Below the pieces are notes generated by a model that had not been told where the DNA came from, searched no databases, and was given only the letters and a program-made list of their open reading frames with translations. From the NCBI GenBank assembly GCA_013416795.1, contig RQSC01000028.1, positions 460,342 through 524,341 on the forward strand: a stretch of 64,000 nucleotides of DNA. The letters are read 5' to 3'. Below are positions 16,543 through 62,643 of this stretch, piece by piece; positions within the stretch are counted from its first letter, which is position 1, and every line of letters starts with the position of its first letter. The DNA is from Prasinococcaceae sp. CCMP 1430. Lineage: Eukaryota; Prasinodermophyta; Palmophyllophyceae; Prasinococcales; Prasinococcaceae. The position numbers and the translations under genes were made by a program.

Positions 16543-16736
16543 TGCGCCCTCCGCGCGCTCGGGGCGGCGAAGGCGCTCGCGTGCGCGCCCGCGCGTGCGC
16601 GCCCGCGCGCGCGCGTGCACTCGCGATGTAATGTCTGTTCGATGGCCGAGTTGCACTTACTTCGGCGCGAGCGCGGGCTGTACAGGAGGGGGCGCGGCAC
16701 CGGAGCCGGGTGATACTGGCGCGGTCGCGTGACAAA
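16543..16736. other. Convergent 3' spacer
   Basis: 194 bp with a GC-alternating tract (about 16590-16620) and TGTAA at 16627-16631 for the plus-strand gene. No gene seen. Confidence 0.4.
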
Positions 16737-16976
16737 TTACTTCTTCTTCGCGCTCATGGAGTCCACCTGGTTGAGCGCCGGGCCAAGAATGTTGTACAGC
16801 ACCCAGCCGACCGCCGGGCCGAGGATCAGCAGCAGGATGCCGAAACGGCCGTCCACAGCCACGTCCATCACCTCCTGCGCAGCGTCAGCGTTGCCAGCCG
16901 CGAGCAGCGCCGACAGGCCCACCGCGCCGGCGATGCCGCGCTTGCCCTTCTTCGCCTGCATGGCGTCCACCTGGTT
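16737..16976 (-). CDS. PSBY: Photosystem II protein PsbY, last exon
   Basis: The last exon of a spliced gene, 79 codons plus stop. It starts after an acceptor (CTAACAG preceded by a pyrimidine tract at 16978-17010). It reads a lumen-targeting hydrophobic stretch (GIAGAVGLSALLAAGNADA), then the PsbY unit: AAQEVMDVAVDGRFGILLL, LGPAVGWVLYNILGPALNQV, ending DSMSAKKK. The exon opens with NQVDAMQAKKGKRG, which closely resembles the end of the unit (NQVDSMSAKKK). An upstream exon probably therefore encodes another PsbY unit, as in the nuclear two-unit PsbY precursors of green plants. That exon should lie toward the 695-bp gap. PsbY is a one-helix thylakoid protein of photosystem II. Confidence 0.85.
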   Translation of the reverse strand, partial: NQVDAMQAKKGKRGIAGAVGLSALLAAGNADAAQEVMDVAVDGRFGILLLILGPAVGWVLYNILGPALNQVDSMSAKKK

Positions 16977-17356
16977 CTGTTAGGACGCGAGAAGAGAGCA
17001 AAAGGGGGGGGGGGGCGGCGTCAGCACACGACCCGAAGAAGCGCAGCAGAGAAATGGCAGCAGCGCGCAGGGTGGTACGGGTCCAGGCAGTACCGCCATC
17101 CGCACAAGCGCCTGAAGGCAGAGCAGCAGCTCAGCCAGCCAGCGGCAAGCGCCCGCAGTGCAAGCAGCCCACTGCGGCATAGCTAGCTGCGCAGCGCAAC
17201 ACAGCCGCGCGGCGCGGCGTCGCGCTCCGCGCAGTCCCATGCCGCGTCGCGCAACGCAGCGCCGCCTTGCGCGGCGCCGCGCCGTGCTCCGCACGCTGGC
17301 ATCGCGCGCGCGGCGCTGCCGCGCCGCATCACAGCTCGCCGCACTGCGTGGCGCGA

Positions 17357-18051
17357 NNNNNNNNNNNNNNNNNNNNNNNNNNNNNNNNNNNNNNNNNNNN
17401 NNNNNNNNNNNNNNNNNNNNNNNNNNNNNNNNNNNNNNNNNNNNNNNNNNNNNNNNNNNNNNNNNNNNNNNNNNNNNNNNNNNNNNNNNNNNNNNNNNNN
17501 NNNNNNNNNNNNNNNNNNNNNNNNNNNNNNNNNNNNNNNNNNNNNNNNNNNNNNNNNNNNNNNNNNNNNNNNNNNNNNNNNNNNNNNNNNNNNNNNNNNN
17601 NNNNNNNNNNNNNNNNNNNNNNNNNNNNNNNNNNNNNNNNNNNNNNNNNNNNNNNNNNNNNNNNNNNNNNNNNNNNNNNNNNNNNNNNNNNNNNNNNNNN
17701 NNNNNNNNNNNNNNNNNNNNNNNNNNNNNNNNNNNNNNNNNNNNNNNNNNNNNNNNNNNNNNNNNNNNNNNNNNNNNNNNNNNNNNNNNNNNNNNNNNNN
17801 NNNNNNNNNNNNNNNNNNNNNNNNNNNNNNNNNNNNNNNNNNNNNNNNNNNNNNNNNNNNNNNNNNNNNNNNNNNNNNNNNNNNNNNNNNNNNNNNNNNN
17901 NNNNNNNNNNNNNNNNNNNNNNNNNNNNNNNNNNNNNNNNNNNNNNNNNNNNNNNNNNNNNNNNNNNNNNNNNNNNNNNNNNNNNNNNNNNNNNNNNNNN
18001 NNNNNNNNNNNNNNNNNNNNNNNNNNNNNNNNNNNNNNNNNNNNNNNNNNN
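17357..18051. other. Assembly gap (695 N)
   Basis: A continuous run of N. It is flanked on the left by GC-rich low-complexity sequence and closely followed on the right by a CCCCAA-type repeat. The upstream part of psbY may be lost in it. Confidence 0.98.
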
Positions 18052-41560: not shown

Positions 41561-44500
41561 ATGTCCAAGAAGGCCAAGCGTGGGGTGAAGGGCGCCAAGA
41601 AGAGGCGCAAAGCGCAGCATGAGGAGGCCGCACCCGCGCCGATTGACGAAGGGACGGGGCTCGATGCGGACATCGGGCCCGACCAGTGGGCGGCCATGGG
41701 GACAGCGCCAGCCGACATCGCCGAGGACGTGAGCGCAGCGGGCAACTGGATTGGAGGCGCCGGCGAGAGCGCCTCAGCCGAGGCCGCCGAAACAGCTGAG
41801 GCCACCGCCGGCCGTGCAAGCGGTGGCCTTCAGTGCGGCACTGCGACCGACACCTGCACAGAGGCTTTTCACGACGCACATACCGATGCCAGTGTCGATG
41901 CCGGCGCGGACGCAGACGAATACCGATCCAGCCCATACGCCGAAGGCACCCAGCGGTACGACGACGGCGCGTATGGTGTAGACGGAGACGACGAGTACGA
42001 GGCGATGCTGAAGGACGAGATTGCCACGCGCAACGACGTGCGTCAGCGCCTTCTCGAGGCGCGACAGCGAGCATTCGATGACGACCCCGACTACCGCAAG
42101 CGCCCCCTCACGGTCCTGAACGCGGAGGCGGTTGCACTTCAGCGCGCCGGCGACAACCTCGGCGCGGTAGCCGCGTACGCCAAGGTCTTCAGGAAGATAC
42201 AGGAGGGCAACCTCACGCACCCGGAGCTCTTCGTGACGCACGGCAACCGCTCGAGCGCCTATCTGAAATTGAGGCTGTACGAGGAGGCGCTATGGGACGC
42301 CAACAAGTGTCAGGAGCTCGCAGAGAAAGCCTTCAACAAGGACAAGCGCACCAACACACTGGGGTGCTACGCTCGCGCGTTCGCGCGCAAGGGCTACGCG
42401 CTGATGGGCCTGCGCCGCTATCGCGCTGCGGCGGCCATCTTTGCGGACGGCCTCGCGCGCGATCCGGATAGCACGGAAATGAAGGAGGGGCTCGACCAGG
42501 CACAGCAGGGAGTGCTCAGCGACCTGCTGGAGGGCCGCGGGCTGGAGACGCTCGCTCTCCCTGCACCCGATCCCAAGAAGAAAATCACGTGGCTGCCGCG
42601 CTCCACCGCAATCCACAAGATCGAGGAGGGCCTCCCCACGTCACTGCTGACACCTTTCCAGGCGGACAACGACTACCACGTCAAAGACACCTACAACTAC
42701 GTCACAGTCCAATCGGATGTGCGCATGCCCAAACTCCACATGGAGTACCTGCGCGACGACGTGCGCGTGAGCGCGTTCGCTGATGCGATACAGCGCGCGG
42801 TGGAGGCATGTGCGGAAGAGGACATGGACGCGCGCGTACTGCTACTGCAGGGCGGGGCGGGCCTGCTCGCGATGGAGGCTCTGCGCGCCGGTGCGTACCA
42901 CGTGACGGTTTCCGAGCGCTGGCTGTACTTGGCGAGCGTATGCAAGGAGAATCTGCTCGCGAACGGCTACTCCGACGACTCGGTGCGCGTGGTGTACAAA
43001 CGCCCCACCGACCTGACTCTCCGCAAGGACCTTCCCGTCTTCGCCAACATCCTGGTGGCGGACGCGCTGGACGACGCGCTGCTCACGAGCGGCATCATTC
43101 CGGGTATGCGCCATGCGCTGCACAATCTGGTCACACCCGACTGCTACGTCATCCCGGCCAGCGCGACGGTTTTCGTGCAGGCGATCGAGATACAGACGCT
43201 CGAGGTGTGCGGCCTTGACGTGAGCGCTGTGAACAGGCACCGCTGGGCGCCCGCGTTCCGGTGCGGCACGCCGATCAAGGAGGGCGCGTACACACCGCTC
43301 TCGCAGCCCGCGCAGGCGTTTCACTTCGACTTCAAGATGCCCCCAGAGGAAGCAGAGCGTGTGACGCTCGACCTGCACTTTGAGACTCCGGGCATCTTCA
43401 ATGCGGTGCTCGTTTGGTACGAGCTGCGCTTGGACCAGAACACCACGCTGTGCACGGGTCCGCGCGCGCACGGCGGCTCGGGCCTGCACACGCTCCGCCC
43501 TGCTCTGCAGTACTTGGCGGGTGAAATCGTGGTGGATGACGGTATGGTGCTTCCGCTCATGTGCGAGCATAACACTGTGCGCCTGCGTTTCGACGTTGAG
43601 GCCGCCGAGTACATCAACTTGGCCATATCCAATGCCAACTTCCCGCCCGTTCAGTTCACCATGCTCACGGATACCCTCAAACACGAGGCGTACTACCGCG
43701 CAATCGGGCGTGCGGTTCAGCGCACCAAGGCAAAGAACCCCTTCGGCGAGTGCCACGTGGCCGACCTCGGCACTGGCGTGGGCGTGCATGCAATGATGGC
43801 CGCCAAGAGCGGCGCGACGTCAGTGACGGGTATCGAGTACCACGATGCTGTGGCCGACGTCGCCCGGCGCAACGTGGCTGCCAACGGACTCGGAGCGAAC
43901 GTGTCGATCGTGCAGCGCGACGTGGGGCTCGTGGAGCGCGGCAAGGGCGCGCGCCGCCAGGGTTGCAACATGGCCATCTTGGACATCTTCGATGCTGGCC
44001 TGATTGGCCACAAGGCGCTGTACATGATTGAGGTGGCCAAGCGCAACTTTTTGCAACCAGACACCACCGTGGTGCCACAGGCGGCGACTCTCTACTGCAT
44101 GGGCGTCGAGGTGATCACCTCCAAGGTGCGCGGCTTCGATATGAGCGCAATTAATAAGTACCGCTGGGATGACACCTACGAGACGCTCTTCATCGACGAC
44201 GTGCCGCATCGCCGCCTGACCAAACCCAAGAAAGTCTTCGAGTACTTCTTCGACGGGAAAAGGAAAGGGCGCTCGCGTGAGAACGTGCTCAAGCTGGAGG
44301 TCACGCAGAGTGGTATACTCAATGGCATAGTGATGTGGTATGACCTGCACCTTGACGACGAGGACTCGCTCACGACGGCGCCCGCGGGCATCGGCATGGG
44401 CGGGTACGTGATCAGCGCGGCGCCCAGAGTCGAGGGCGGCGAGGACGGGGAGCAAAACGCGGAGGCGAGTGAGGGGATGCGCGAGAGCGTGCCAGTGCGT

Positions 44501-45198
44501 GACATCACCACGGTACATGCGGCGGCCGACGGGGGAGATCCGGACGAGGAGGAGCCCCATCGCCACTACCACGGCCAGGCGCTGCAGTATCTTGAGCGCG
44601 CGGTCGGCGTATCCAAGGGCAAAAAGGTTACCGTGCTCGCCAAGCGCGTGGAAGACAAGGTGGCCTTTGCCTTGCGTGAAGGCGTGGGTGTGATGGTGTC
44701 CAAGTCGCCTTGGAAGATTGTGCTGGGGGGCGGCGCGTCTACCGAGAGCCCGCACTATCAGCGCGTGCACTATTGCGAACTGCTGGTGCGCGACTTCCTC
44801 ATGCGTCTGAAGGGCAAGCGCTTCCCGCCCATCGAGAAGGACATGAAAATGATCCTCGCCCACTGCGGGAACCTGTTTTTGGTAAGGGCGCGAGCACGCG
44901 TGCGCGTGCGCGAGCGGGTTCGCGAATAATAGTCTCTGACCTGCGCGCCCCGGACTGCACGTCGCAGGACCCCCGCTGTCTGCAAGATACATACCACGAC
45001 TTCTGCGTGATGTACGTCGGCGTTGACACCAGCGGTCAGGGAACGCTGAGAGCGCGCTTGCTCGATCCAGCACGACATTTTGCACGCACGGCCTCTCGGC
45101 GCGTGTGCCCTGACTTGGTCGCTAGCAATCTTAGCACATTCAAATGCATGCGCTGTGCTGACGCGACTGGCCGCACCGCCTCGCTCGGCGCGCTCTGA
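41561..45198 (+). CDS. PRMT9-like protein with TPRs and two arginine-methyltransferase modules
   Basis: Exons 41561..44881 and 44968..45198 (86-bp GT-AG intron, phase 0) encode about 1183 residues. An in-frame ATG at 41474 is also possible. Layout: basic start MSKKAKRGVKGAKKRRK, an acidic linker, TPR-like helices (~160-330, ALQRAGDNLGAVAAYAKVF), a first methyltransferase (~370-690, LLLQGGAGLLAMEALRAGA) and a second (~700-1080, CHVADLGTGVGVHAMMAAKS). Each is followed by a PRMT-type beta barrel. TPR plus tandem modules is the layout of PRMT9. The 'double-E' loop is altered in both: VADALDDALLTSGI in the first and ILDIFDAGLIGHKA in the second, so activity is uncertain. The second exon is supported by frame and splice sites only. 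Confidence 0.78.
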
Positions 45199-45490
45199 AA
45201 CAGGGAACACGTCTTTGCACAACACTGGCAAGAGTTCTCCCCGGGTGCAACCTACGATGCAGTCTCTAGCCGCCCGCTCTTTCTAGCGTAAACGCACACG
45301 CGCGAGTGCATTCATCCCCTCTACCTAATACTGACATCCGTTCAACAAATCTACACTGCGCGCGGCCGCTGGCTCGCTTGTCCCCCCGCCCCTTGTCGCG
45401 CGCTCGCCGCGTGCGCTCGGGGGCCGTGGTCAATCAGAGCACCTTTCATGGCTCCTAGTCCTAGCCTACCACATATGCTTGTCACTCTCC
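45199..45490. other. Convergent 3' spacer
   Basis: 292 bp between two stop codons. Nothing recognisable beyond AT-richer sequence at 45300-45350. Confidence 0.4.
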
Positions 45491-47326
45491 TCACACATCG
45501 GCCTTCTTGTCTTCTACGAGCTTCTTCATTGAGCTGCTCGACGAGACACCTCGTGTCGATTGGATGTAGCTGTTGTAGCTGTAGTGCATGCCTCCCAACA
45601 GGCCGATGCACACGCCAAGTACGTTAGGCGCGTAGATTGGCGCATCGGCTGGGAACATAACGAAACCGAGCGTGGTTGTCAGGACGTCCTTGATCTGGCC
45701 AGTGACTGAGGTGACCAGCGGGCTGTTAATGTTCGTGCACCTACAACATCGCCGGAGCGAGAGTGCATGCGAGGCACGCACGCACGCGTTGGCAGTTGTC
45801 AGCATTGGGTTCGCAGCCAATACGAATGCGCGCGCGCACGTGCACGCGACGCACCGGAAAATACACAGGTTCAGCAGGAAGGCCTGGCTGGCCGATAGAA
45901 TCAGAAAGGCGATGAACGACCCGTCGAACAGCCTCGGAAAGCTCTGCACGCGCTGCAGCTCGTCCGTAGCAACTGCCGTGTAAGCGAGCATGAGTGGCAT
46001 TGCCAACACGTTGTTGCACCACAGCAAGCCGGCGTCGGAGAGTCCCGTGGACGAACGCAACAGCTTGATGAGCAACAAATAGCACGCCGTGCTAACCACG
46101 AGGACGGACACCATCACGTAGCCTGGAAAGGTGTACATCAAGTCCGTCACGCCCGCGACGAGGCCGCCGAGCATCATGAGTGCGACGGAGACGACATTGG
46201 ACAGGCTGGGCGTCTTGTCCAACACGACGAACTCGCCCACCATCACCTGCGACCACGCCAGCGCGAGAGCGCGTGCAATGCACACGCGCGCGCGTTGGTG
46301 GTGGTCAGCATTGAGTGCGCAGTCAGTGCTGCAAGCGCGCACGCATACGTGTGGGTGACTTACCAGCATCGTGGTAGCTCGTCTGAACACGCTGAACATT
46401 GGCACGGACAGGTATCGGAGCGCAATCAAGCCGGACACGACATACACCCACCAGCAGATGGTGAGCGGCAGTACGCGCACGAGGGTTGACGCCGGTGGCA
46501 GCGGGTTGAAGTCCAGGAGGCGGTCGCCCGTGAGCACGCGCAGCAGCAGCATCAACACCAGCGTGAGCGAGAGCTGCAGCAGTGTGAGGACGCACGGGAA
46601 GGAGAACCCGTACCACGAGAACACCATCTTGTTGAAAATGGTGATACACATAGAGATGCTGCCATACGATAACGCGGCCAACAGCTTGGTGAGAGGGCTG
46701 TAGTGCACCAAGCGGGCGCTGGATATCGGGGTCTTCTTGGCGGGATCTGATGAGGAGGCCGAGAAGGCTGCGGCAAGAGCGGCAGCCTTTTCGGCTGCAG
46801 CGGCTGCCGCCTCCGCGAACGCCGCACCAGCCGGGGACTGATCAGGCTGATGCTCGCCCCTCTGCCGCTTGTGGTCGGGCAGAGGTTGCTCGGGCGGCGC
46901 GTGAGTCAAGTGGCCGCGCTCAGCATCAACGCGGCTGGTATCACCCGGCGTTGGCACAACGGAGCCGTTGACTCCACCACCTCGAGCGTCGCCTGTTGGC
47001 GGGCCTAGACGCGATGCCTCGGCCATGTCAGGAGCATCGGCTTCTTCTTGGCGATGACGGGAACCCCCTCCTCTGCGCTTCCTGCTGCTGCCGCCGCCGC
47101 CGCCACCCCTGCCAATACCGAAGAGGCCGCCCCGCGCACCACGAAAGAACGTGCCGGGGCCGTCCACGAGAGCTGCGTCAACTCCGGGGGGCTCCTGCCG
47201 CTCGTCCTTGACTCGAAGTGCCTCCTCATCGTCGTAAAGAGGGTTCACCGGCGAGCTGTCCCACTCGGGGGGCTCTCCGTCGGTTCCCGGCGTATAGTAC
47301 GGCGTGCCGTCGTGTCGCGCGCTCAT
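45491..47326 (-). CDS. Nucleotide-sugar transporter of the NST/TPT superfamily
   Basis: Exons 47326..46364, 46246..45855 and 45740..45491 (introns of 117 and 114 bp, GT-AG, both multiples of three) encode 534 residues. The N-terminal ~205 residues are hydrophilic and Gly/Pro-rich. Then about ten membrane helices: LLAALSYGSISMCITIFNKM, FSFPCVLTLLQLSLTLVLM, VLPLTICWWVYVVSGLIALR, MFSVFRRATTMLV|VMVGEF, ALMMLGGLVAGVTDL, and VMVSVLVVSTACYLLLIKLL. It closes with NINSPLVTSVTGQIKDVLTT. FRRATTM and the NSPL...GQIKD stretch fit the SLC35D/GDP-mannose transporter group. It is likely a Golgi antiporter of a nucleotide sugar; the sugar is not determinable. It may supply the Golgi glycosyltransferase encoded at 31.2-33 kb. 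Confidence 0.87.
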   Translation of the reverse strand: MSARHDGTPYYTPGTDGEPPEWDSSPVNPLYDDEEALRVKDERQEPPGVDAALVDGPGTFFRGARGGLFGIGRGGGGGGSSRKRRGGGSRHRQEEADAPDMAEASRLGPPTGDARGGGVNGSVVPTPGDTSRVDAERGHLTHAPPEQPLPDHKRQRGEHQPDQSPAGAAFAEAAAAAAEKAAALAAAFSASSSDPAKKTPISSARLVHYSPLTKLLAALSYGSISMCITIFNKMVFSWYGFSFPCVLTLLQLSLTLVLMLLLRVLTGDRLLDFNPLPPASTLVRVLPLTICWWVYVVSGLIALRYLSVPMFSVFRRATTMLVSHPHVCVRACSTDCALNADHHQRARVCIARALALAWSQVMVGEFVVLDKTPSLSNVVSVALMMLGGLVAGVTDLMYTFPGYVMVSVLVVSTACYLLLIKLLRSSTGLSDAGLLWCNNVLAMPLMLAYTAVATDELQRVQSFPRLFDGSFIAFLILSASQAFLLNLCIFRCVACTCARAFVLAANPMLTTANACVRASHALSLRRCCRCTNINSPLVTSVTGQIKDVLTTTLGFVMFPADAPIYAPNVLGVCIGLLGGMHYSYNSYIQSTRGVSSSSSMKKLVEDKKADV

Positions 47327-52519: not shown

Positions 52520-54343
52520 ATGCCCGACTCTGTGTTCGCCGACGCGGTGAGCACGCAGATGGCATGCGGCCCGCAACCCGCCACACCGCGCGCCGCCTGT
52601 CACGCCGCGACCGCGGTGGGGCGGCCGTGGCCCTGCTGGGCCGCGGTGATGGGTAGTGGTAGCGGTGAGGGCGACGAGGCTTGCGGGGGCGGCGCGCTCG
52701 GCGACCCCGCGGGTGCTGCCGGCGCTGACGCGGCCGCTGCCTGGGATGGCCCGCCAGCGGCGGACGGGGGTATAGCAAGTACCGCCGCCGATGCGGACGC
52801 GGGCAGCGAGGAGGCGTTCTGCTGCATCTGCCTTTCGGGCATCTCGCCCGAGCCGTGCGCGACCTTCGACTGCTGCGAGCACACCTTCCATTCGGAGTGC
52901 CTCTCGCGGTGGGTGCAGGTGGAGGCTCTCTGCCCCTTGTGCAGACGCGAGGCGAGTTCGTGGAGCGTGCCGGCTGCCGCCGTGCACGCTGGCGGGTCCC
53001 CAGCCCCCGCTGTCACGCACGCCATCGACCGCTCGCGCCGCCAGAGCGCCGAGGACGAGTTTGATGCAGCGGACTGGATCGACGGCGAGAGCGACGACGA
53101 CGGCGACAGCGGAGGCGATGAGCTCGCGGACGTCGTGTGCTATGCGTGCGGGGGTGGCGGTGATGAGGCGCGCTTGCTTATGTGCGATGGCTGCCCACGC
53201 GCAGCGCATACGTATTGCCACGGGCTTTCAGCAGTACCCAGTGGGGAGTGGTTCTGCGGCCAGTGCCCGCCGGCGCCGGCGCAACGACAGCGGCCGCCGC
53301 TGCGCGCGCGCCAGTCACATCGCGCCAGCAGGAACTCCGACGCGCACCTGGCCAACCTGCGTGATGCATTTGTTCCTACACTCGCCGACACGTCGCCTCC
53401 GCCCAGCACACGGCGAGGCGCGAGGCGTCGCGCGCAGGAAGCGCACGCGCGAACACTTGCAGGAGCTCTAGTGCTCCGCAGCACGCGGCGCGGGCGTGTG
53501 GGGCGCCTTTCCATCGGCGCTGGGGCGGCGTACCGCATGCACGTCGAGGACATGCGAGCCGGTGCGACCGCCGGCGACGGTGGCTCAGACACGCGCTCCG
53601 AGGCCGCTCGAGCGCTGCTGGCGGCGCGTGGGCGCCGCCAAAGGATACTCTCGCCAAATACAACGAGAATCCCGACCGCCATGCGGAACGCCACCGCCCT
53701 CGGTGGCCCCGGCGGTGCCGGCGGCGGGGGTGGTCGCGAAGGCGCCGGTGGTGCCTCGGGCTCCACGGATGTGCTCCTGCAGACTCTCTTCGAGCAGGCC
53801 GACGTTGCCGAGAGGCTCGCGCGCGCGCCGCCACGCGGCCGCGTGCCGTCAGGCGATCGAGCGCAGCCGAGGCGGCCCTCACAGCGCCCTACACTTCGAG
53901 TGGGTGCGGGGCGCGTCGTGCCGCGCGCCGCGGGCGCGCCGCGGTCGTCGGCGCTGTTGCACATGGTGTGCACGAGCGAGGCGAGGGAGGGCGAAGGGTC
54001 GTCGCCGACAAGGGCGTGTGCAGCTGCTGTAGGTGGCACAGGCGCAATCGCAGGCGACGCCTGGGATGTTGAGAGCGGAGGCAGTGGCGCCGGTGGCGGC
54101 GGCAGCAACGACGCCGACGCTCCGACCCGTCGCGCTGATAGTCAAGGCGTGCCCGCGCTGGACAAGGTGAACGTCGTTCGCGCTGTGAAAGCAGCCCTAC
54201 GGGAGTCGCCGACCGGGCGCGCGCTTGAGCGCGAGCACTTCAAAGTAGTGGCAAAAGAGGCCACAGTGGCGGTATTGGGCGGCCACGCGTCCAGCGCGGC
54301 ATGCGCCGTGCGCGATGCCATGCGGAGGCGGCGGCTTCTTTGA
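52520..54343 (+). CDS. RING-H2 plus PHD finger protein (PHRF1-like)
   Basis: 607 residues from ATG 52520 (another in-frame ATG at 52648). The RING-H2 finger is at ~101-142: CCICLSGISP, DCCEHTFHSECLSRW, CPLC. The PHD finger is at ~205-249: VVCYACGGGGDEARLLMCDG, CPRAAHTYCHGL, GEWFCGQC. All zinc ligands of both are present. This order of RING then PHD close together is that of PHRF1 and related plant proteins, which are nuclear E3 ligases linked to chromatin or RNA polymerase II. The rest is low-complexity, Arg- and Gly-rich, with a conserved-looking helical end (NVVRAVKAALRES, HFKVVAKEATVAVLG). No SRI domain was confirmed. It converges on the PP2C fusion gene 67 bp away. Confidence 0.83.
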   Translation: MPDSVFADAVSTQMACGPQPATPRAACHAATAVGRPWPCWAAVMGSGSGEGDEACGGGALGDPAGAAGADAAAAWDGPPAADGGIASTAADADAGSEEAFCCICLSGISPEPCATFDCCEHTFHSECLSRWVQVEALCPLCRREASSWSVPAAAVHAGGSPAPAVTHAIDRSRRQSAEDEFDAADWIDGESDDDGDSGGDELADVVCYACGGGGDEARLLMCDGCPRAAHTYCHGLSAVPSGEWFCGQCPPAPAQRQRPPLRARQSHRASRNSDAHLANLRDAFVPTLADTSPPPSTRRGARRRAQEAHARTLAGALVLRSTRRGRVGRLSIGAGAAYRMHVEDMRAGATAGDGGSDTRSEAARALLAARGRRQRILSPNTTRIPTAMRNATALGGPGGAGGGGGREGAGGASGSTDVLLQTLFEQADVAERLARAPPRGRVPSGDRAQPRRPSQRPTLRVGAGRVVPRAAGAPRSSALLHMVCTSEAREGEGSSPTRACAAAVGGTGAIAGDAWDVESGGSGAGGGGSNDADAPTRRADSQGVPALDKVNVVRAVKAALRESPTGRALEREHFKVVAKEATVAVLGGHASSAACAVRDAMRRRRLL

Positions 54344-54410: not shown

Positions 54411-57400
54411 TCACTGAATGGCGCACGATGACTTGCTCTTGCTGCCTCCAGGCGCGGGCCGTTCTGGCGACGGCCTCCCGACATCTGCGGCTCGCATCTT
54501 GACGCCATTCTCGGACGCGTACAGCGAAGCGTGCAGCGCGATGCGCGCCTTGTGCGAGTGGACGAGGTGCGAGAGCGCCGCGAAACGTACGACGCCTGGA
54601 AAGTCTGCTCCGCCGGAGTCGAAGTTGCCATCTGACCTGGGCGTACTCGGGGTCGAGGCTGAGCTGGCGCCCGACTCTTTGTGTCTGTGTGAGCGTGCGG
54701 TGAGACGCATTCGTCGAAGCACGCACCGCGCGTGCATCTCGTGCAGGTTAAGCGTCATGAGCGCGGTCTCGAGCGTAGCTGCCGGCACTGAGTGCATAGT
54801 GCCGCCACGAAGCGAGTCATCTCTGTGCCCCCTCCCCTCCTCCTCAAGCAGGCGAATGAGCCTGCGTTTCTCGTGCTGCGTGAGGTGGCGGCGCATATCC
54901 TCGAGCACTGCCTTGCTCCACGCGTGCGCAGCCGAACTGTCGCGAATTCTGCGCACGGTGTGGTTGAGAGACGCCCCGACACTGGGGACCATCGTGATTC
55001 CTACCTTCGGGGAGGCTTGCTGTCCGTCGCCATTGCCATCTTCGCCGCGCACCGGGGTGAGCTTGACGCCGTTCACTCTGAACCAAGGGTGCTCTAGCGC
55101 CTGGCGCGCTGTCGGCCGTTTCGCCTCGTTGCGGCACAGCAGGCGCGAGAGCAGAGCCCTCAACTCGGCGCTGCATGCCGGCGTTGAGGCGGGCAGATTG
55201 CCGCTCTGCAGCTCCCGCCACACCATCCCCTTTTCGCTCTCGGGCGGGATGCCTGCCAGCATCACCCAGAGCATGACTCCGCACGACCACACGTCTGCCT
55301 TGGTGCCGTAGCCCGTGTCGCCTATGTTCACAACCTCCGGTGCCGCATAGAAGCGATTACCCTCGCAGTCCCGCAGTCGCTCCCGTCGCGGCAGGAAAGT
55401 CGCGCATCCGAAGTCGACCAACACTATGGAGTCGTCACCGCCGCTGCTCGAAACGTTGCCGGCGCCGTCGCTCGCATGGTCGCCTGACGATTGCCTGGAA
55501 CGCATCAGCACGTTCTGCGGATGTATGGCGCGATGCACGATTGGCGTCGCACCCATCTCGTCGTGCAGGTGCCGCACGGCATCGAGGAGCTGCGCGAAGA
55601 GGTGCGCAAGCCGTGCCTCGTTGTGGGACGTTCCACTGCTTCTCTGGGAGTCCCCGCCTGTGAGGCTGTGGGAGCCTCGCTCGACTGAAAAGCTGCTGGA
55701 GCGGGAGCTCTCAAAGCTGCCTCCAGGGCCCACGCGGCGCGACGTGTGCTCGGTTTCGTTTCCGCCGATGTGCGATAGCAGCGTCCCACCGTCGCACAGC
55801 TCCGTGACGATGTGCAATGCGCCGCCGTCCTCGTACGTGGCGAGTACCCTCGGCAAGTTGCGGTGCCTTCCGTGGGAGCTGACTCCTACCAGCGTATCCA
55901 ACTCGTCGCGATGCTGCTTGGCGCGATCATTGGTGACAATGACGCTCTTCACGGCCACCCGCTCTCCGCTCTCTCGGTGTGTGGCATGTCTCACCACGCC
56001 ATACATCGCGGACGAGATCTCCTCGCCGAGCTCGTACGTGTCAGCGAGCGCACCTGGCGGCCCAAGCTTGCGCGAGGGCTCTTCCTCAAACAGGTGTGTA
56101 CCGCTTTCGAAGAGCCCTCTCAACTCGGCGGCTTCGAGGTCTTCCTCCAAATCTGACATCGCGAGGCCCATGCGGTGCATGCCGTCATGGACGGTGTCGT
56201 CTGAGACGATACTGTGAGTGCTGGGGTTGTCGCCATCGTAGGAGGCGCCCGCGAGCTCGGTCGCTTCATGCGCCCCGATTTCGGCGGCCTGCGTTTCTGT
56301 GTGGGTTTCATTCGCGCGATCGTGTTTGCTGCCGCGCCACGTGGCATCCAAGGGTGCGCTCTGGACGATCGCGACCCTCGTGTTTTCCGGGCGCTTTGCA
56401 GAGTATTTGAACTTGGTCAAAGCATTGCGCACATGGCGCACGGGGGGTCTCGCCGCGGTGCCATCGTAGCCTGGGGCCATCAGGTCCACCACGAGCACCG
56501 TAATGTCGTCGTGTACGCCGCGGCGCGCGATGGATGCGTCGAGCACACGCTGCGCGGCGTCTTCCACGTTGCCGTAGTGCGCAATGGCGTCGAAGGCGTG
56601 CATATCAACGGCGTTCCATACGCCGTCCGACGCGACCACCAGCCGCTGGCGCTGCGTGAGGGGCTCGCTGCCGTCGCCGGCTTCGTCGGCCGCAGTCCGC
56701 CGCTCGCCCGTACCAAGCGGAAGCGGCACTCGCATGATCTCGGGCTCGTTGAGCACCGTACCTGTGGTGACGATGTTGCCCAGCGCGCGCGTGACTGCCA
56801 AGCCGCCGGGGTACACGCGGATCGGGCCAACAGGCCCATGGTCGGTCATAATGCGCCCTATCTGGCCGCCAGCTGCGGTGACCCGCTCCGTCTCGGCCGC
56901 GTTAATGCCCGGCGAGTGGTCGACGGTCAGAATGGTGCTCGACTGCTGCCCCATGGTATCGGTGGAGAAGGCCGTGTCGGCGGTGCCGTCGAGTCCGGAC
57001 CGATCAGACGCGTCCTTCGAGCTGCGTCGAGAGTCTGCACCCGTGCCGACCGCCTTTCTCCCCCCCCCGGACCAGGCGCCGCCCCCGTCGACGCTCAAAT
57101 CGTCGCTCTCCAGTGGCGACAGCAGGACCGCCCGCGAGTCGCCGACCCATGCAACCACGAGTTCGAGGCGGGTGCCGCCGTCGCTCTCGGACGCTTCGAC
57201 GCGCTGCACGAAGACAGCTGTCGCGGTGGAGCCCGCGTGTGGCGGCGGCCGCATCCCGCAGCACCCAGTGGGCTCGGAGACGCGCTCCTGCACCTTGGCG
57301 AAGCCGATCTTGACGGCGTCCTCGAGCGAGGCGGTGCTGGAGCGCGCGGCGAGCGTGTCCGCGAGCAGGTGCACGCGGGCGCACTCGGAGACATCGGGGC

Positions 57401-57638
57401 ACCTGCCATGGCCGTCAAAGATTCCCGCAAAGGCCACGACGTCGCCCCAGTCGGCGCTCGACGTGCGCGGCCCGGGCCCCGTGTGCCCAAACGCGGGCTC
57501 CAGCGGCTCCGCGCCCGCGCTGGGCACCGCGAAGTCGTAGCGGTCCTGGCCTGACTTGTGTGCGACGGCGGCCGCGGCAGCGAGGGCGGGCCCCTGCGCG
57601 TCGCCGTCGCGCGGGGCGCCCGCCAGCGGCACGCGCAC
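54411..57638 (-). CDS. PP2C phosphatase-CDPK-like pseudokinase fusion with CaaX end
   Basis: 1075 codons in one uninterrupted frame. It has no ATG at its 5' end (GTG 57638), so a short first exon is missing. Residues 31-390 are a PP2C domain: QDRYDF, FDGHGR (75-78 metal Asp), GSTATAVF, VGDSRAVL, GGLAVTRALGN, VASDGVWNAV, and HDDITVLVV. The metal Asp residues are kept. Residues ~534-853 are a kinase fold: degenerate Gly loop (EEISSAMYGVV), VAVKS (Lys 564), HRAIHPQNVLM (702-712), VDFG, and APEVV. In HRD the catalytic Asp is Ala (A704) and the Lys is His, so catalysis is unlikely. A helical tail (~915-980) looks like a worn EF-hand region. The last four residues Cys-Ala-Ile-Gln form a CaaX prenylation motif after a Lys/Ser-rich end. 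Confidence 0.9.
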   Translation of the reverse strand: MRVPLAGAPRDGDAQGPALAAAAAVAHKSGQDRYDFAVPSAGAEPLEPAFGHTGPGPRTSSADWGDVVAFAGIFDGHGRCPDVSECARVHLLADTLAARSSTASLEDAVKIGFAKVQERVSEPTGCCGMRPPPHAGSTATAVFVQRVEASESDGGTRLELVVAWVGDSRAVLLSPLESDDLSVDGGGAWSGGGRKAVGTGADSRRSSKDASDRSGLDGTADTAFSTDTMGQQSSTILTVDHSPGINAAETERVTAAGGQIGRIMTDHGPVGPIRVYPGGLAVTRALGNIVTTGTVLNEPEIMRVPLPLGTGERRTAADEAGDGSEPLTQRQRLVVASDGVWNAVDMHAFDAIAHYGNVEDAAQRVLDASIARRGVHDDITVLVVDLMAPGYDGTAARPPVRHVRNALTKFKYSAKRPENTRVAIVQSAPLDATWRGSKHDRANETHTETQAAEIGAHEATELAGASYDGDNPSTHSIVSDDTVHDGMHRMGLAMSDLEEDLEAAELRGLFESGTHLFEEEPSRKLGPPGALADTYELGEEISSAMYGVVRHATHRESGERVAVKSVIVTNDRAKQHRDELDTLVGVSSHGRHRNLPRVLATYEDGGALHIVTELCDGGTLLSHIGGNETEHTSRRVGPGGSFESSRSSSFSVERGSHSLTGGDSQRSSGTSHNEARLAHLFAQLLDAVRHLHDEMGATPIVHRAIHPQNVLMRSRQSSGDHASDGAGNVSSSGGDDSIVLVDFGCATFLPRRERLRDCEGNRFYAAPEVVNIGDTGYGTKADVWSCGVMLWVMLAGIPPESEKGMVWRELQSGNLPASTPACSAELRALLSRLLCRNEAKRPTARQALEHPWFRVNGVKLTPVRGEDGNGDGQQASPKVGITMVPSVGASLNHTVRRIRDSSAAHAWSKAVLEDMRRHLTQHEKRRLIRLLEEEGRGHRDDSLRGGTMHSVPAATLETALMTLNLHEMHARCVLRRMRLTARSHRHKESGASSASTPSTPRSDGNFDSGGADFPGVVRFAALSHLVHSHKARIALHASLYASENGVKMRAADVGRPSPERPAPGGSKSKSSCAIQ

Positions 57639-58731
57639 GCCGCCTCCCCCGCCCCTCGCGCCTCGCCTGGAGCGTCGCCTCGCCTCGTGCGTCGCGCGCG
57701 CGCGCGCGCGCGTGGGTTGTGCGCTCGGGGAACGGCACGCGGACCCTGCGAGGATTTGCGGAAAGATTTACCAGAAAGTGGCAAACGAACAACCGGGCGC
57801 CGTCAGAATGAACCGCGATGCCCCTTCGACTGGCCGCGAGGGCGCTGAAGTCAATGACAGTAACGTACGCCGCCGCTCCGCCACGCTGGAGACTGATGGT
57901 GTATATGTGGGTCACATGGATTCGAGATCTCGACGCGGATTCGCGATCTCGCAACAACTCCTGGTGGTTGGCGGTGCCGAATCTACGGGTGCTGAATCGA
58001 TGGAATGATGGGAGGATTCGCCCCCGTCGCGCGCGCGCGCGCGCGGCGCGCCGCGCGGGAGGCCTGGATCGGACCCAACCAAGCGCTCGCTCCGCGGTCG
58101 CTCTGATGTTGTTGTTGTGGCCATAGAAGACAGCGGCAACTTTCGCCGCGGTTGTTGACGCTTTTGCAACTGCAACAACAACAGCAACAAACAATCGCGG
58201 CGTGGTAGAATGGACACTGTCCCAACAATTTTCGAACAATTTGGAGGGTGAAGAGCGGGCGACATTTCGGGGGTCCGCGCAGCGCGTTCGCGTCCCGTCC
58301 ATCCGTTCCCAGGCTCCCTCGTCGCGCCGCGCGCCCCGCCGACCGACCGAGCGCGCGCGCGCGCGCGCGAGCGCGGCGGGAAACTTGCAAGCAAACTTCG
58401 AATCGATCTGCGGTCGACCTCCGCGGGCTGTATGCGCGCGGCGAGGTCGAAGTAGGGCATCGCCTCCGCCGGGGGCTGCCACCGCGCGCGCGCGCCAAGG
58501 GCGGCAGAGGCGCGCAGGGCGCGCGCGGGGGAGGGGAGAAGGAGGGAGGGAGGGGGGAGGGGCGTGCCGCAGCTCCCGCTGTGTGCGCTCGTTCCCGCCG
58601 TGCGTGCCGGGCACGCGCGCCGCGCGCCGTCACATCGATCGCATCGCGAATCGAGCGAATCGGCGCGCCCGCGCCTCGGCGCACGAGTGGACAAGGCTGG
58701 CCGCGCGCCGACGGCGGGCGCACCGGCGGCG
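57639..58731. promoter_or_regulatory. 1.1-kb divergent region between PP2C fusion and DNA methyltransferase
   Basis: It probably contains the first exon of the PP2C fusion gene (near 57640-57790). It also has GC-alternating tracts (57692-57712, 58029-58044, 58356-58372) and an 11-bp inverted repeat (TGTTGTTGTTG at 58107-58117, CAACAACAACA at 58173-58183). No separate gene is supported. Confidence 0.45.
58107..58183. repeat. GTT/CAA inverted repeat
   Basis: Perfect 11-bp arms, TGTTGTTGTTG and CAACAACAACA, are separated by 55 bp, so a stem-loop is possible in DNA or RNA. It lies 550 bp before the methyltransferase start. Confidence 0.6.
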
Positions 58732-61700
58732 ATGGCGAGCAGCAGCGACGAGAGTGATATGATCGACATCATGTCCTCCGACTCTGACGCGTCCGATTCA
58801 GACAAGGACGACTCCGACTTCGTGGTCACCGAGGCGATCGAGGCGACAGCGGCAGCCCCCGAGAGCGAGGAGGCCGCCGCGCCCCAGGCTCCCGTCGCGG
58901 AGCACGTCGCTGGCGGCACGGGCGCCTCCGCCGCGGAGCTAGTGGGCTCGGACGGGGGCGGCTCGGACGGCAGCTCCCACAGCGATGAAGCAGAGTACGA
59001 GGTCGAGGCGATCCTCGCGGTGCGCAAGCGCGGGCGCACGTCCCAGTACTTGGTGAAGTGGCAAGGCTACGGCGATGAGGACAATACCTGGGAGCCCGAA
59101 CAGCACCTCGCCGGCTCCCAGGACTTGCTCGATGCGTTCCTCGCCGAAAGGGAGGCCAAAGAAGCCGAGGCGCTCGCCCGCCGGCAAGCTGCTAACGCGC
59201 AGCTGCGCGGCGCGGGCGCCGACGGCGGTGGCATCTACACGTCCCCCGACGGCAAGCGGTACAGCGCGCGAGAGCGCAGGAGCGTCATCCGTCTGAGCTA
59301 CGACACAGACGAGGAGGGGGCGGAGCGCAGGAAGCGCCGCAAGAAAACGTCGAAGAAGAAGGCCAAAAAGGCAGGGCCCACCAAGAGGAAGGCTGGCGGC
59401 GGCAACGGAGTCGCCGGGCCCTCCAGGCCGGTGCGCGTGGTCGACGCCGCGGCCGAGAAGGAGTCCAATTTCAACAACGCTGACATCGAGCTCTGGAGCG
59501 AGTGTTTCGATGCGCCGCAGTGGGACGTCGCCAAGGTGACCAAGCTGGGCGTGCTCGAGCTCTTCGCGGGGTGCGGTGGCCTGAGCATGGGCGGTTCCAT
59601 CAAGTTCGCGGTGAATGGCACACGAACCGTCGATCTTAGCATCGACACCGTGGGCGCCGTCGAGATCGAGCCGGTGCCCGCACGAACGTTCAAGCTCAAC
59701 TACCCGCACGCCAACGTCATCGTGATGGGCGTCGGGCGCTTCGTGGCCACTACGCGGCGCTTCGTGCACCTGCTGAAGGACTGTCGCGCCGTTGTCGACG
59801 CCAGCGATGAGGGCGAGGGCGCTGGTGCCGCCAGCGGGCGCACCGTGGTGGGCATGCGGATCAATCAGGCGATCGCGTCGGAGAAGGTGATCGTGACCAA
59901 CGCCAAGGGCTGGCGCAACACTTCGGGCACGGGCTCACAGTCCAGGCAGCTCATGGACTACGTGACCGTCGAGGAGGCTGGAGGCACGGTTGCCCTGGGG
60001 TGGGTGGAGTGGTGCGTGCAGGCCGAGGGTTCCCAGTCGGAGGGTCAGTGGATGAGCGACAGATCTATGTGCGAGCAGAACCTGCAGCGGCAGGCGGGCG
60101 CCTACGTGGCGCGCGACGACTTCAGCCCAGGCGTTTGGCCCATGCCTGGCGACGTGCACATCATTGCGGGCGGCCCGCCGTGCCAGGGTTTCTCGGGCTA
60201 CAACTCGCAGCGCACTCTGTCGCAGGCGGTATCGGAGGTCCTCTCCGATCCCGAGAACCGCTTGCTGGCGCGATTCATGGAGGCAGTGTGGCTGTACCGC
60301 CCGCTGTACCTCATCATGGAGGAAGTGCCGAACGTGGCAGACAAGAGGGACGTGATGGACTTCCTTTGCAAGTCGCTAGCGGTCCATGGATACAACTACG
60401 ATTGGAGGAAACAGACCAAGACTGGCCTCTACGGCGTGCCGCAGTCCCGCAACCGCCTCATCCTGCTTGGCGCGCTCAAGCAGCTCGACATGCCCGAGCC
60501 CCCGAAGCCCGTCGTGAGCTCCTTAAAGTGGGACCAAGACGCCATCACCGACGCCATGCGCGCGAGCCAGCGGGCGCACTTCCTGGACAACATCATCCGC
60601 GAGGAGGAGCCGCCTGAGGGGGGAGCGGCTGCCTGCGACGGCGAACACTACACCCAGGAGAGGGCCGACGAGGAGCGCGAGGCCCTGAGGGAGCGCAGGG
60701 AGGAGATGCTGGAGGTGCTCGGGCCGGAGCCCACCAAGGATGCCAGCGACAATGAGGAGAACGAGGACACGAACCCCAGGATGGAGGTCGACGCCCCCGC
60801 GCCACCCACGGATGCTGCCGCCCGCACGCTACGCAGACGCGACGCGGGGCCATCGCTGGCGAAACGCACGCTCGAGTGGAAGAGGGCCAAGGAGGCCATC
60901 GAGAGGGAGTACCTGGCGGGCGAGGCCGCGGTGAGGCGCAAGCTCAGAGCGAAGGGCAAGGCGCAGTCGGCGAGCGCGCGCAGCGAGGCGCAGCTAGACA
61001 AGGTGCGGCGGGCGCAGCTGCACCCCAAGCTGCGCGCGCGCGCGCTCGTGATCGGCGACGCCTTCACGCCGGACCTGCCGCGCCTCGCCACCGAGGTGAA
61101 GGACACTCAGGAGCAGGCCGTTTTGGAGGCCCCCTCCGATGCGGGCGTGAGCTACGAGTGCAAGTCGCCGACGCCGTACGTGGCGTACCTGCGCCAGACC
61201 ATGGAGGCGGGGCAGAAGGTCACCAACCACGTGGTGTACGACCTCGGAATCTCCGACCGACTGCGCGTGCAGGCGGTGCCGCTCTGGGGAGGCGCGTGCT
61301 GGCGCGACATGCTGGGCCACGACGGCACGATGAATTATCCCAAGATGATGGTGCTTAACGACGACCAATGGGCGCGGCTGGGCTCGCGGTGGATCAACAT
61401 GATCCCCGATCACATGTGGGCCGAGAGGCCCAAGAGGTTCGACGAGCTCGACGGCCGCATGCCCAGGCTCAAGCACGGCTGGAAGCTCGAGTCGAACCGC
61501 TTCCCGATGGTCCCCTACTGGTGCGTGACAATGAAACACGGCAAGGACACGGAATGCTACGGCCGCTACGACCTCGACATGGAACACGGCACCGTGCACT
61601 CTTACCACAAGCCGCACTGGCACGTCAGCCTGGTGCCCTGGGACCACCGCGTGGCGAGTGTGCGGGAGAAGGCGCGCATCCAGGGCTTTCCCGACAGCTT

Positions 61701-62643
61701 CGTGTTCACAGGCACCGTGGCGCAGCAGTACAAGCAGCTGGGGAACGCGGTGTCGCCGCAGCTCGCCAAGGCCATCGCGCGCACTATCATGACGGCCCAC
61801 GCGGGCTCGGTGGCCACCTACGCGGACGCGGGCGCCGCCGCCGCGGCGGGCGCAGACTTCGCCGAACGCGCCAGGGTCGCGGCCGAGGAGGCTGGCTGGG
61901 AACAGGGCGCTGCCGGGGATGTGCGCCCCAGCGTCAGCCTCGTGAGCACCTCCCAGGAGCTGCGGAACTTCGCCGAGTTCTGCGACACGTTCAACCCTGC
62001 CGAGGAGCTCGAGCAGGACGTGCTGCGCCACGACCCGGCGGACGCCAAGGACCTCGCGGAGCGCCCGCAGCTCGAGAACATGACCTACGAAGAGTTCCTC
62101 GTGGCGTACAACACGCAACATCGCGACGATCACTCCGTGCGCAACAACAAGAGGAATCCCTTCGAGACCTGCCGCGAGGCGGAGGGGTACCACCCCTACC
62201 GCATCGAGCGCTTCAAGGCGCTGCGCTGGAGGAGGGACGAGTCGGGGACGCTGTCCATGGAGTGCTGCATCGAGTACAAGGACTGGCCCAACCACGAGTG
62301 GGACTGGCTGGTGAAACCGTACTTCGGGTTGAGCGCGTGGCGCGAGTTCATGCGGGACGTTGGCGAAGAGGCTTTCCTCACCTTCGAGAGGCGACAGGTC
62401 GAACACGTCGTGGCGCCGGGCCTCGACGTAGACGTCACCGAGGAGAAGCGGGTGTCGACCGTGCTCTCGGGGGCGGAAGAGAAATCGTTCGAGATGGAGG
62501 AGCGCTACAACGAGGAGATGGACAAGGGCTGGATCCCCGACCCTGCGCGGGCCAAGAGGGGGCGTGCTAAGAAGAGGCCCGCGCCGATGGACGACGGCGA
62601 CGACGGCGACGCGGAGGGTATCGCTATCGACCTCTGCGCGTGA
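58732..62643 (+). CDS. Chromodomain DNA (cytosine-5) methyltransferase
   Basis: 1303 residues from ATG 58732, no introns. Chromodomain ~88-141 (AEYEVEAILAVRKRG, YLVKWQGYGDEDNTWEPEQH), then a Lys-rich nuclear-type stretch (200-222). The C5-methyltransferase motifs follow in order: I LGVLELFAGCGGLSMGG (~272), IV GGPPCQGFSGYN (~479, catalytic Cys), VI MEEVPNVAD, VIII TGLYGVPQSRNRLILLGA, IX REKARIQGFPDSFVF, and X QLGNAVSP. A ~300-residue charged insert separates VIII and IX. The C-terminus (~1140-1220) has IEYKDWPNHEWDWL and WREFMRDV and looks like a second, worn chromodomain. It is close to chromomethylases and algal chromodomain DNMTs, but the chromodomain precedes the catalytic part and no BAH domain is seen. 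Likely role: maintenance methylation guided by histone marks. Confidence 0.93.
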   Translation: MASSSDESDMIDIMSSDSDASDSDKDDSDFVVTEAIEATAAAPESEEAAAPQAPVAEHVAGGTGASAAELVGSDGGGSDGSSHSDEAEYEVEAILAVRKRGRTSQYLVKWQGYGDEDNTWEPEQHLAGSQDLLDAFLAEREAKEAEALARRQAANAQLRGAGADGGGIYTSPDGKRYSARERRSVIRLSYDTDEEGAERRKRRKKTSKKKAKKAGPTKRKAGGGNGVAGPSRPVRVVDAAAEKESNFNNADIELWSECFDAPQWDVAKVTKLGVLELFAGCGGLSMGGSIKFAVNGTRTVDLSIDTVGAVEIEPVPARTFKLNYPHANVIVMGVGRFVATTRRFVHLLKDCRAVVDASDEGEGAGAASGRTVVGMRINQAIASEKVIVTNAKGWRNTSGTGSQSRQLMDYVTVEEAGGTVALGWVEWCVQAEGSQSEGQWMSDRSMCEQNLQRQAGAYVARDDFSPGVWPMPGDVHIIAGGPPCQGFSGYNSQRTLSQAVSEVLSDPENRLLARFMEAVWLYRPLYLIMEEVPNVADKRDVMDFLCKSLAVHGYNYDWRKQTKTGLYGVPQSRNRLILLGALKQLDMPEPPKPVVSSLKWDQDAITDAMRASQRAHFLDNIIREEEPPEGGAAACDGEHYTQERADEEREALRERREEMLEVLGPEPTKDASDNEENEDTNPRMEVDAPAPPTDAAARTLRRRDAGPSLAKRTLEWKRAKEAIEREYLAGEAAVRRKLRAKGKAQSASARSEAQLDKVRRAQLHPKLRARALVIGDAFTPDLPRLATEVKDTQEQAVLEAPSDAGVSYECKSPTPYVAYLRQTMEAGQKVTNHVVYDLGISDRLRVQAVPLWGGACWRDMLGHDGTMNYPKMMVLNDDQWARLGSRWINMIPDHMWAERPKRFDELDGRMPRLKHGWKLESNRFPMVPYWCVTMKHGKDTECYGRYDLDMEHGTVHSYHKPHWHVSLVPWDHRVASVREKARIQGFPDSFVFTGTVAQQYKQLGNAVSPQLAKAIARTIMTAHAGSVATYADAGAAAAAGADFAERARVAAEEAGWEQGAAGDVRPSVSLVSTSQELRNFAEFCDTFNPAEELEQDVLRHDPADAKDLAERPQLENMTYEEFLVAYNTQHRDDHSVRNNKRNPFETCREAEGYHPYRIERFKALRWRRDESGTLSMECCIEYKDWPNHEWDWLVKPYFGLSAWREFMRDVGEEAFLTFERRQVEHVVAPGLDVDVTEEKRVSTVLSGAEEKSFEMEERYNEEMDKGWIPDPARAKRGRAKKRPAPMDDGDDGDAEGIAIDLCA

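Follow-up and report, generated by a model that had tools for sequence, protein, structure and literature searches.

A PP2C phosphatase fused to a predicted CAMK-group pseudokinase in a prasinococcalean alga, and a paralogue with the opposite apparent losses

The fusion gene and its surroundings

The minus strand of the window, by which we mean the whole stretch of 64,000 nucleotides from Prasinococcaceae sp. CCMP 1430 that was analysed, carries a single reading frame of 1075 codons (54411-57638) in which a PP2C phosphatase domain is followed by a linker, a kinase fold and a C-terminal segment (Table 1). When codon-position GC is taken in blocks of 60 codons, low GC2 and high GC3 are seen in nearly all blocks between about residue 7 and the C-terminal end. 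The linker contains no stop codon and has the same GC2/GC3 bias as the domains on either side of it, and this unbroken bias marks the frame as one coding region, in agreement with the earlier note on this DNA, which had described one unbroken reading frame.

The 5′ end of the gene is incomplete. The frame opens at GTG, and there is no ATG between the upstream in-frame stop and the DGHG motif of the phosphatase; the first in-frame ATG lies near residue 129, and initiation from it would delete DGHG. Translation must thus begin at a codon other than ATG or in a 5′ exon still to be seen. The second is the probable case, with a short exon lacking from the frame, and a search for it by eye settled on none.

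Two frames on the plus strand adjoin the fusion gene. The head-to-head neighbour (58564-62643) is a long frame that by eye resembles a chromodomain-containing cytosine-5 DNA methyltransferase (chromomethylase-like), and the frame that converges on the 3′ end (52520-54343) contains, also by eye, RING-finger-like and PHD-like Cys/His motifs. Elsewhere in the window, GC content falls to 46% at 16001-18000, the remainder being 60-74%.

Table 1. Positions in the window of the fusion frame and of its domains and motifs
Feature	Position	Strand	Basis or remark
PP2C-pseudokinase fusion ORF	54411..57638	(-)	1075 codons without an ATG, thus incomplete at the 5′ end; continuous codon-position GC signature
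PP2C phosphatase domain, residues 29-388	56475..57554	(-)	Pfam PF00481; PDB matches PPM1K/PP2C kappa
D32 of KSGQDR, PP2C motif-1 Asp	57543..57545	(-)	alignment
DGHG metal-binding motif, residues 75-78 (D75)	57405..57416	(-)	motif position, alignment
GSTA, residues 136-139; intact here, lost in paralogue	57222..57233	(-)	alignment
SDG metal-binding motif (D338), intact; SNG in paralogue	56622..56630	(-)	alignment
DDITV, residues 377-381, C-terminal metal-binding Asp motif (D377/D378)	56496..56510	(-)	alignment
Linker, residues 389-531; PSRKxGPPG just before kinase, common to paralogue	56046..56474	(-)	alignment
CAMK-group kinase fold, predicted pseudokinase, residues 532-854	55077..56045	(-)	Pfam PF00069; PDB CDPK3, CASK, CaMKII
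Glycine loop EISSAMYGVV, degenerate, with Gly lost at the first two positions	55992..56021	(-)	alignment with paralogue LGHGKYGHVY
VAVK with K564, kept	55947..55958	(-)	alignment
Ser-rich insert in kinase fold, residues 630-672, absent from paralogue	55623..55751	(-)	alignment
HRAIHPQN, residues 702-709: A704 for the catalytic Asp and H706 for Lys; N709 kept	55512..55535	(-)	alignment
DFG (D742), kept	55407..55415	(-)	alignment
C-terminal segment, residues 890-985, conserved in paralogue; not EF-hand by any test	54684..54971	(-)	alignment, Pfam, shuffles
CAIQ following SKSKSS, a possible CaaX box for farnesylation	54414..54425	(-)	sequence; FTase/GGT-I alpha gene elsewhere in genome

The phosphatase, the kinase and the tail

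The N-terminal domain is recognized as PP2C by Pfam (1.6e-16; PF00481 at 61-67 bits against a cut-off of 20.3). Its set of metal-binding aspartates is complete (D32, D75, D338, and D377/378), with the KSGQDR segment around D32 lining up with KGED-R in three further PP2Cs that this genome encodes, VGDSR occupying residues 165-169 (D167) and SDGVW spanning residues 337-341. Outside the metal site, one conserved PP2C residue is altered, RALGD being RALGN. The DGHG, SDGVW and DDITV motifs, to which the earlier note had assigned the metal aspartates, are all in place, and the domain is likely to be an active phosphatase.

The kinase fold is matched by Pfam Pkinase (3.7e-41, above cut-off), and its closest structures in the PDB are CDPK3 (the best), CASK and CaMKII. 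In an alignment of this domain with nine other kinases of the same genome, Ala704 stands at the position of the HRD catalytic aspartate of the paralogue described below and of seven other kinases, and His706 occupies the lysine position of HRD-x-K. The loop is HRA-x-H, as had been claimed from the letters alone, and the alignment puts Ala704 at the true HRD position. The GxGxxG pattern is also absent, the corresponding residues being ISSAMYG, so that two of the three loop glycines are lost. Lys564 of VAVK, Glu579 of the C-helix, Asn709 and Asp742 of DFG are kept, and with them the predicted pseudokinase may still bind Mg-ATP. A single-sequence structure prediction of residues 515-1045 reached a pLDDT of 34 and was set aside.

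In the kinase tree, the domain is sister to the kinase of the paralogue (support 98/96) and is not joined to the CDPKs of the genome. The earlier description as CDPK-like is better replaced by CAMK-group, the level to which the PDB matches point. A Pfam scan of the protein contains no cNMP module, and none had been claimed.

The tail is homologous to that of the paralogue (none of 500 shuffles reaches the alignment score). By eye the post-kinase segment looks like a CDPK junction, and an EF-hand tail was considered and rejected: Pfam reports no EF-hand in the protein even at an E-value of 10, the tail matches nothing relevant in the PDB, and when it is aligned with the tails of two CDPKs from this genome that do have EF-hands, the scores are at shuffle level, with 27-29% of shuffles doing as well. 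The worn EF-hand-like tail of the earlier note is thereby withdrawn, and the Ca-sensing part of the scaffold that it proposed is left without an EF-hand signal.

The protein terminates in SKSKSSCAIQ, the Cys-Ala-Ile-Gln end having been read correctly before, and CAIQ conforms to Cys-aliphatic-aliphatic-X. A gene for the alpha subunit of FTase/GGT-I is present in the genome, and no uninterrupted beta subunit of either enzyme was found there; the one uninterrupted beta subunit is that of RabGGTase, so either introns interrupt the gene for the CaaX beta subunit or the search overlooked it. Judged from its C-terminus, the window protein is possibly farnesylated at CAIQ and targeted to membranes; the paralogue has no CaaX box. 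Other CaaX-like ends occur among the signalling proteins of this genome, namely CSVM in a PP2C (L015:1947-4565, minus strand) and CALM in a CAMK-like kinase (L007:901-2442, plus strand).

A paralogue of the same architecture on contig C18

Relatives were sought in the genome to which the window belongs (24.5 Mb, 145 contigs), where PP2C and kinase domains are joined in one frame at five places: the window and contigs C18, C43, C79 and C136. The C18 gene (G000:C18) is a paralogue whose single frame of 833 codons runs in the same order, from PP2C through linker and kinase to tail, and a PSRK(L/V)GPPG motif precedes the kinase in both proteins. The C18 kinase is intact, with LGHGKYG (fitting GxGxxG), VAVK, HRDIKPTN and DFG. 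In the C18 PP2C domain, SNG takes the place of SDG, a position aligned independently to the SDG of the PP2C 37/56 plant structures; GAAC replaces GSTA, and a lysine replaces the conserved aspartate of the DH motif. The profile match covers profile positions 54-247, and hence begins after the position of DGHG. By these motifs, the phosphatase half of the C18 protein looks broken and the kinase half looks intact. From PP2C motif naming we take motif 8 to be the SDG aspartate, in which case the D344N substitution (Asp to Asn, motif 8) of Arabidopsis PP2C19 would be the change that the C18 paralogue carries. That substitution abolishes rescue in vivo (PMC11775391).

The incomplete 5′ end of the C18 gene is the main weakness of an account by reciprocal loss. 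No DGHG exon was found in the 3 kb of contiguous sequence upstream on the plus strand, at the end of which lies a gap of a single N (C18:47523), and a run of N occupies 44000-45717; because of the single-N gap, the assembly could lack such an exon. These gaps, in the one assembly that there is, would allow the opposite losses to be an artefact: in the organism the C18 phosphatase would be whole, its first exon having fallen into a gap, and SNG would be a base-call error or a tolerated change. We consider this unlikely, because GSTA and the DH aspartate have been lost independently, in addition to SNG, and because the contiguous 3 kb upstream contains no DGHG exon.

The two proteins are 45% identical in the PP2C domain and 47% in the kinase domain, whereas synonymous divergence is saturated (NG86 dS of 1.2-1.3, with dN about half of dS). 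The pair is therefore old, and the identity that persists despite saturation indicates that the “dead” domains are kept by selection; as far as sequence comparison reaches, both domains are constrained in both genes, the presumed dead ones included. The numbers of consensus residues kept (kinase, 10 in the window protein vs 15 in the C18 protein; PP2C, 19 vs 10) differ in the direction predicted by reciprocal decay, without being significant across whole domains (Fisher p = 0.10). In the tree, the branch of the window pseudokinase is 0.6 and that of the C18 kinase 1.08, the root between them not being fixed.

These figures bear on the idea that the window kinase is a quirk of a single copy, decayed after fusion and without function, so that only the PP2C domain would matter. 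Arabidopsis PP2C19 offers a parallel, in that its kinase domain is dispensable and its PP2C domain is necessary and sufficient for the role in phototropism (PMC11775391), and the lost glycine loop and the Ser-rich insert of the window kinase would suit such decay. We nevertheless give it little weight, since the pseudokinase is still 47% identical to its sister at saturated dS, keeps VAVK, Glu579, Asn709 and DFG, and does not exceed the intact sister in branch length, with the caveat on the root given above. Still less probable, in our view, is a kinase active by an unusual mechanism, which would make the protein a switch built of two enzymes in a single chain, as in the rice PKG/PP2C19 type. 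Activity in spite of changed catalytic residues is known for some kinases, ILK1 being an example (PMC9403797), PMC11775391 cites a report that the rice PP2C19 orthologue has dual activity, and Lys564, Glu579, Asn709 and Asp742 are all in place; yet both the aspartate and the lysine of HRD-x-K are replaced here, and two loop glycines are gone. That two adjacent genes, or an unspliced intron, have been misread as one protein would fit the missing ATG but is very improbable indeed, given a frame with no stop, a codon signature continuous through the linker, and a paralogue in which fusion and linker motif recur within a single frame, a recurrence that argues against adjacent genes and frame artefacts alike.

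Of the remaining fusions, the one on C43 (L017:513-3932, plus strand) has the order PP2C-cNMP-cNMP-kinase of the PP2C19 type, and its kinase is dead, with FRG for HRD and DFR for DFG. A PP2C joined to a dead kinase thus occurs twice in the genome, with different kinase types, and this recurrence suggests that tethering phosphatase to pseudokinase is no accident but a solution that can be reached repeatedly. The proteins on C79 (PP2C-kinase) and C136 (kinase-PP2C) combine the same two domain families in one frame, but their kinases are long, distant branches with HRD and DFG intact, whereas the window kinase lacks HRD. Searches of phage, viral and prokaryote collections returned no useful relatives, the kinase part having two weak matches in bacterial bins.

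PP2C is fused to a transporter as well. An ammonium-transporter domain and PP2C share one frame on C59 (L013:2302-5358, minus strand; Pfam), and a minus-strand frame on C101 (L014) looks by eye like the same fusion, its PP2C being sister to that of C59 (100/99). Such a joining of transporter and phosphatase may be of interest for nitrogen sensing.

Proposed reciprocal loss and comparison with known systems

The motifs support the earlier claim that an apparently competent phosphatase shares its chain with a catalytically dead kinase fold, and the C18 paralogue strengthens it; the window protein is likely a phosphatase with a pseudokinase as its partner domain. Reciprocal loss from a bifunctional ancestor is the best account of the pair. 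On this account, to which we give somewhat better than an even chance, an ancestral PP2C-CAMK fusion with both activities on one chain would have been duplicated, and the copies would have lost opposite activities. The window copy, with a complete PP2C metal site, would have lost the catalytic base and the glycine loop of its kinase; in the C18 copy the phosphatase site would have gone and the kinase stayed. The window pseudokinase would then most likely be a docking or allosteric module, through which the phosphatase would reach substrates or partners of the kinase type, perhaps at a membrane should CAIQ be farnesylated. With opposite activities lost, the two proteins may share some of their targets, the window protein as eraser and the C18 protein as writer. 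More tentatively, and less likely than not in our view, the duplicates may have become a dedicated eraser and a dedicated writer, each dead domain being retained as a matched docking or regulatory surface and the eraser being anchored at the membrane by farnesyl. What the sequence itself shows is the order of the domains, the state of the motifs, the paralogy and the constraint on each domain; from these we infer the enzyme activities, the docking role, the shared targets and the prenylation of the window protein.

An opposing kinase and phosphatase on one chain raise the question of how a futile cycle is avoided. Paralogues that each lack a different half would, if real, be a natural answer to it, and such a pair would be a clean system in which to test why dead catalytic domains persist. 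The reciprocal paralogue is, for us, a more interesting result than the fusion that was noted first, and a limited literature search found no report of such a pair.

The fusion itself has precedents. A Pfam survey has entries with PP2C and Pkinase in both orders, the species being Arabidopsis, rice, grapevine, two Micromonas and Ostreococcus tauri (PMC2939887, Table 2), and it refutes any novelty of the domain order. These architectures contain the same two Pfam domains as the window protein and are likened to it by domain content only, the survey being silent on kinase group and catalytic state, and likewise on any C-terminal box or pair of paralogues (PMC2939887). In the Phytophthora kinome report, PP2C is joined to AGC, CAMK and OTHER kinases, and Table 2 lists PP2C-CAMK kinases of P. 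infestans, the combination seen here, again a likeness of domain content only, the text stating neither how their domains are ordered nor whether the kinases are intact (PMC3019232). The same report describes PITG_08304 and PITG_09375 as PP2C-cNMP-inactive-kinase proteins, a kind known from plants too, whose kinase is inactive as is predicted for the window protein, and suggests that the kinase-like part binds substrates of the phosphatase (PMC3019232); the docking or scaffold role put forward above for the window pseudokinase would match that proposal. With fusions and docking idea both published, the architecture and the idea of the earlier note were anticipated.

The PP2C19/plant PKG proteins (PP2C-cNMP-cNMP-kinase) resemble the window protein, as do those of Phytophthora, in having PP2C and a kinase fold on one chain (PMC3019232, PMC11775391). 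However, the PP2C19/PKG type has an AGC kinase and cNMP domains, whereas the window protein has a CAMK-group kinase and no cNMP domain; together with the separate PP2C19-type protein on C43, this sets the window protein apart from that type. CASK, also of the CAMK-group fold and among the nearest PDB matches, is a resemblance only, and unlike the window protein it keeps HRD and has no phosphatase. The domain order itself is known, and what is new here is the C18 paralogue, which matches the window protein in architecture and carries its damage in the other half.
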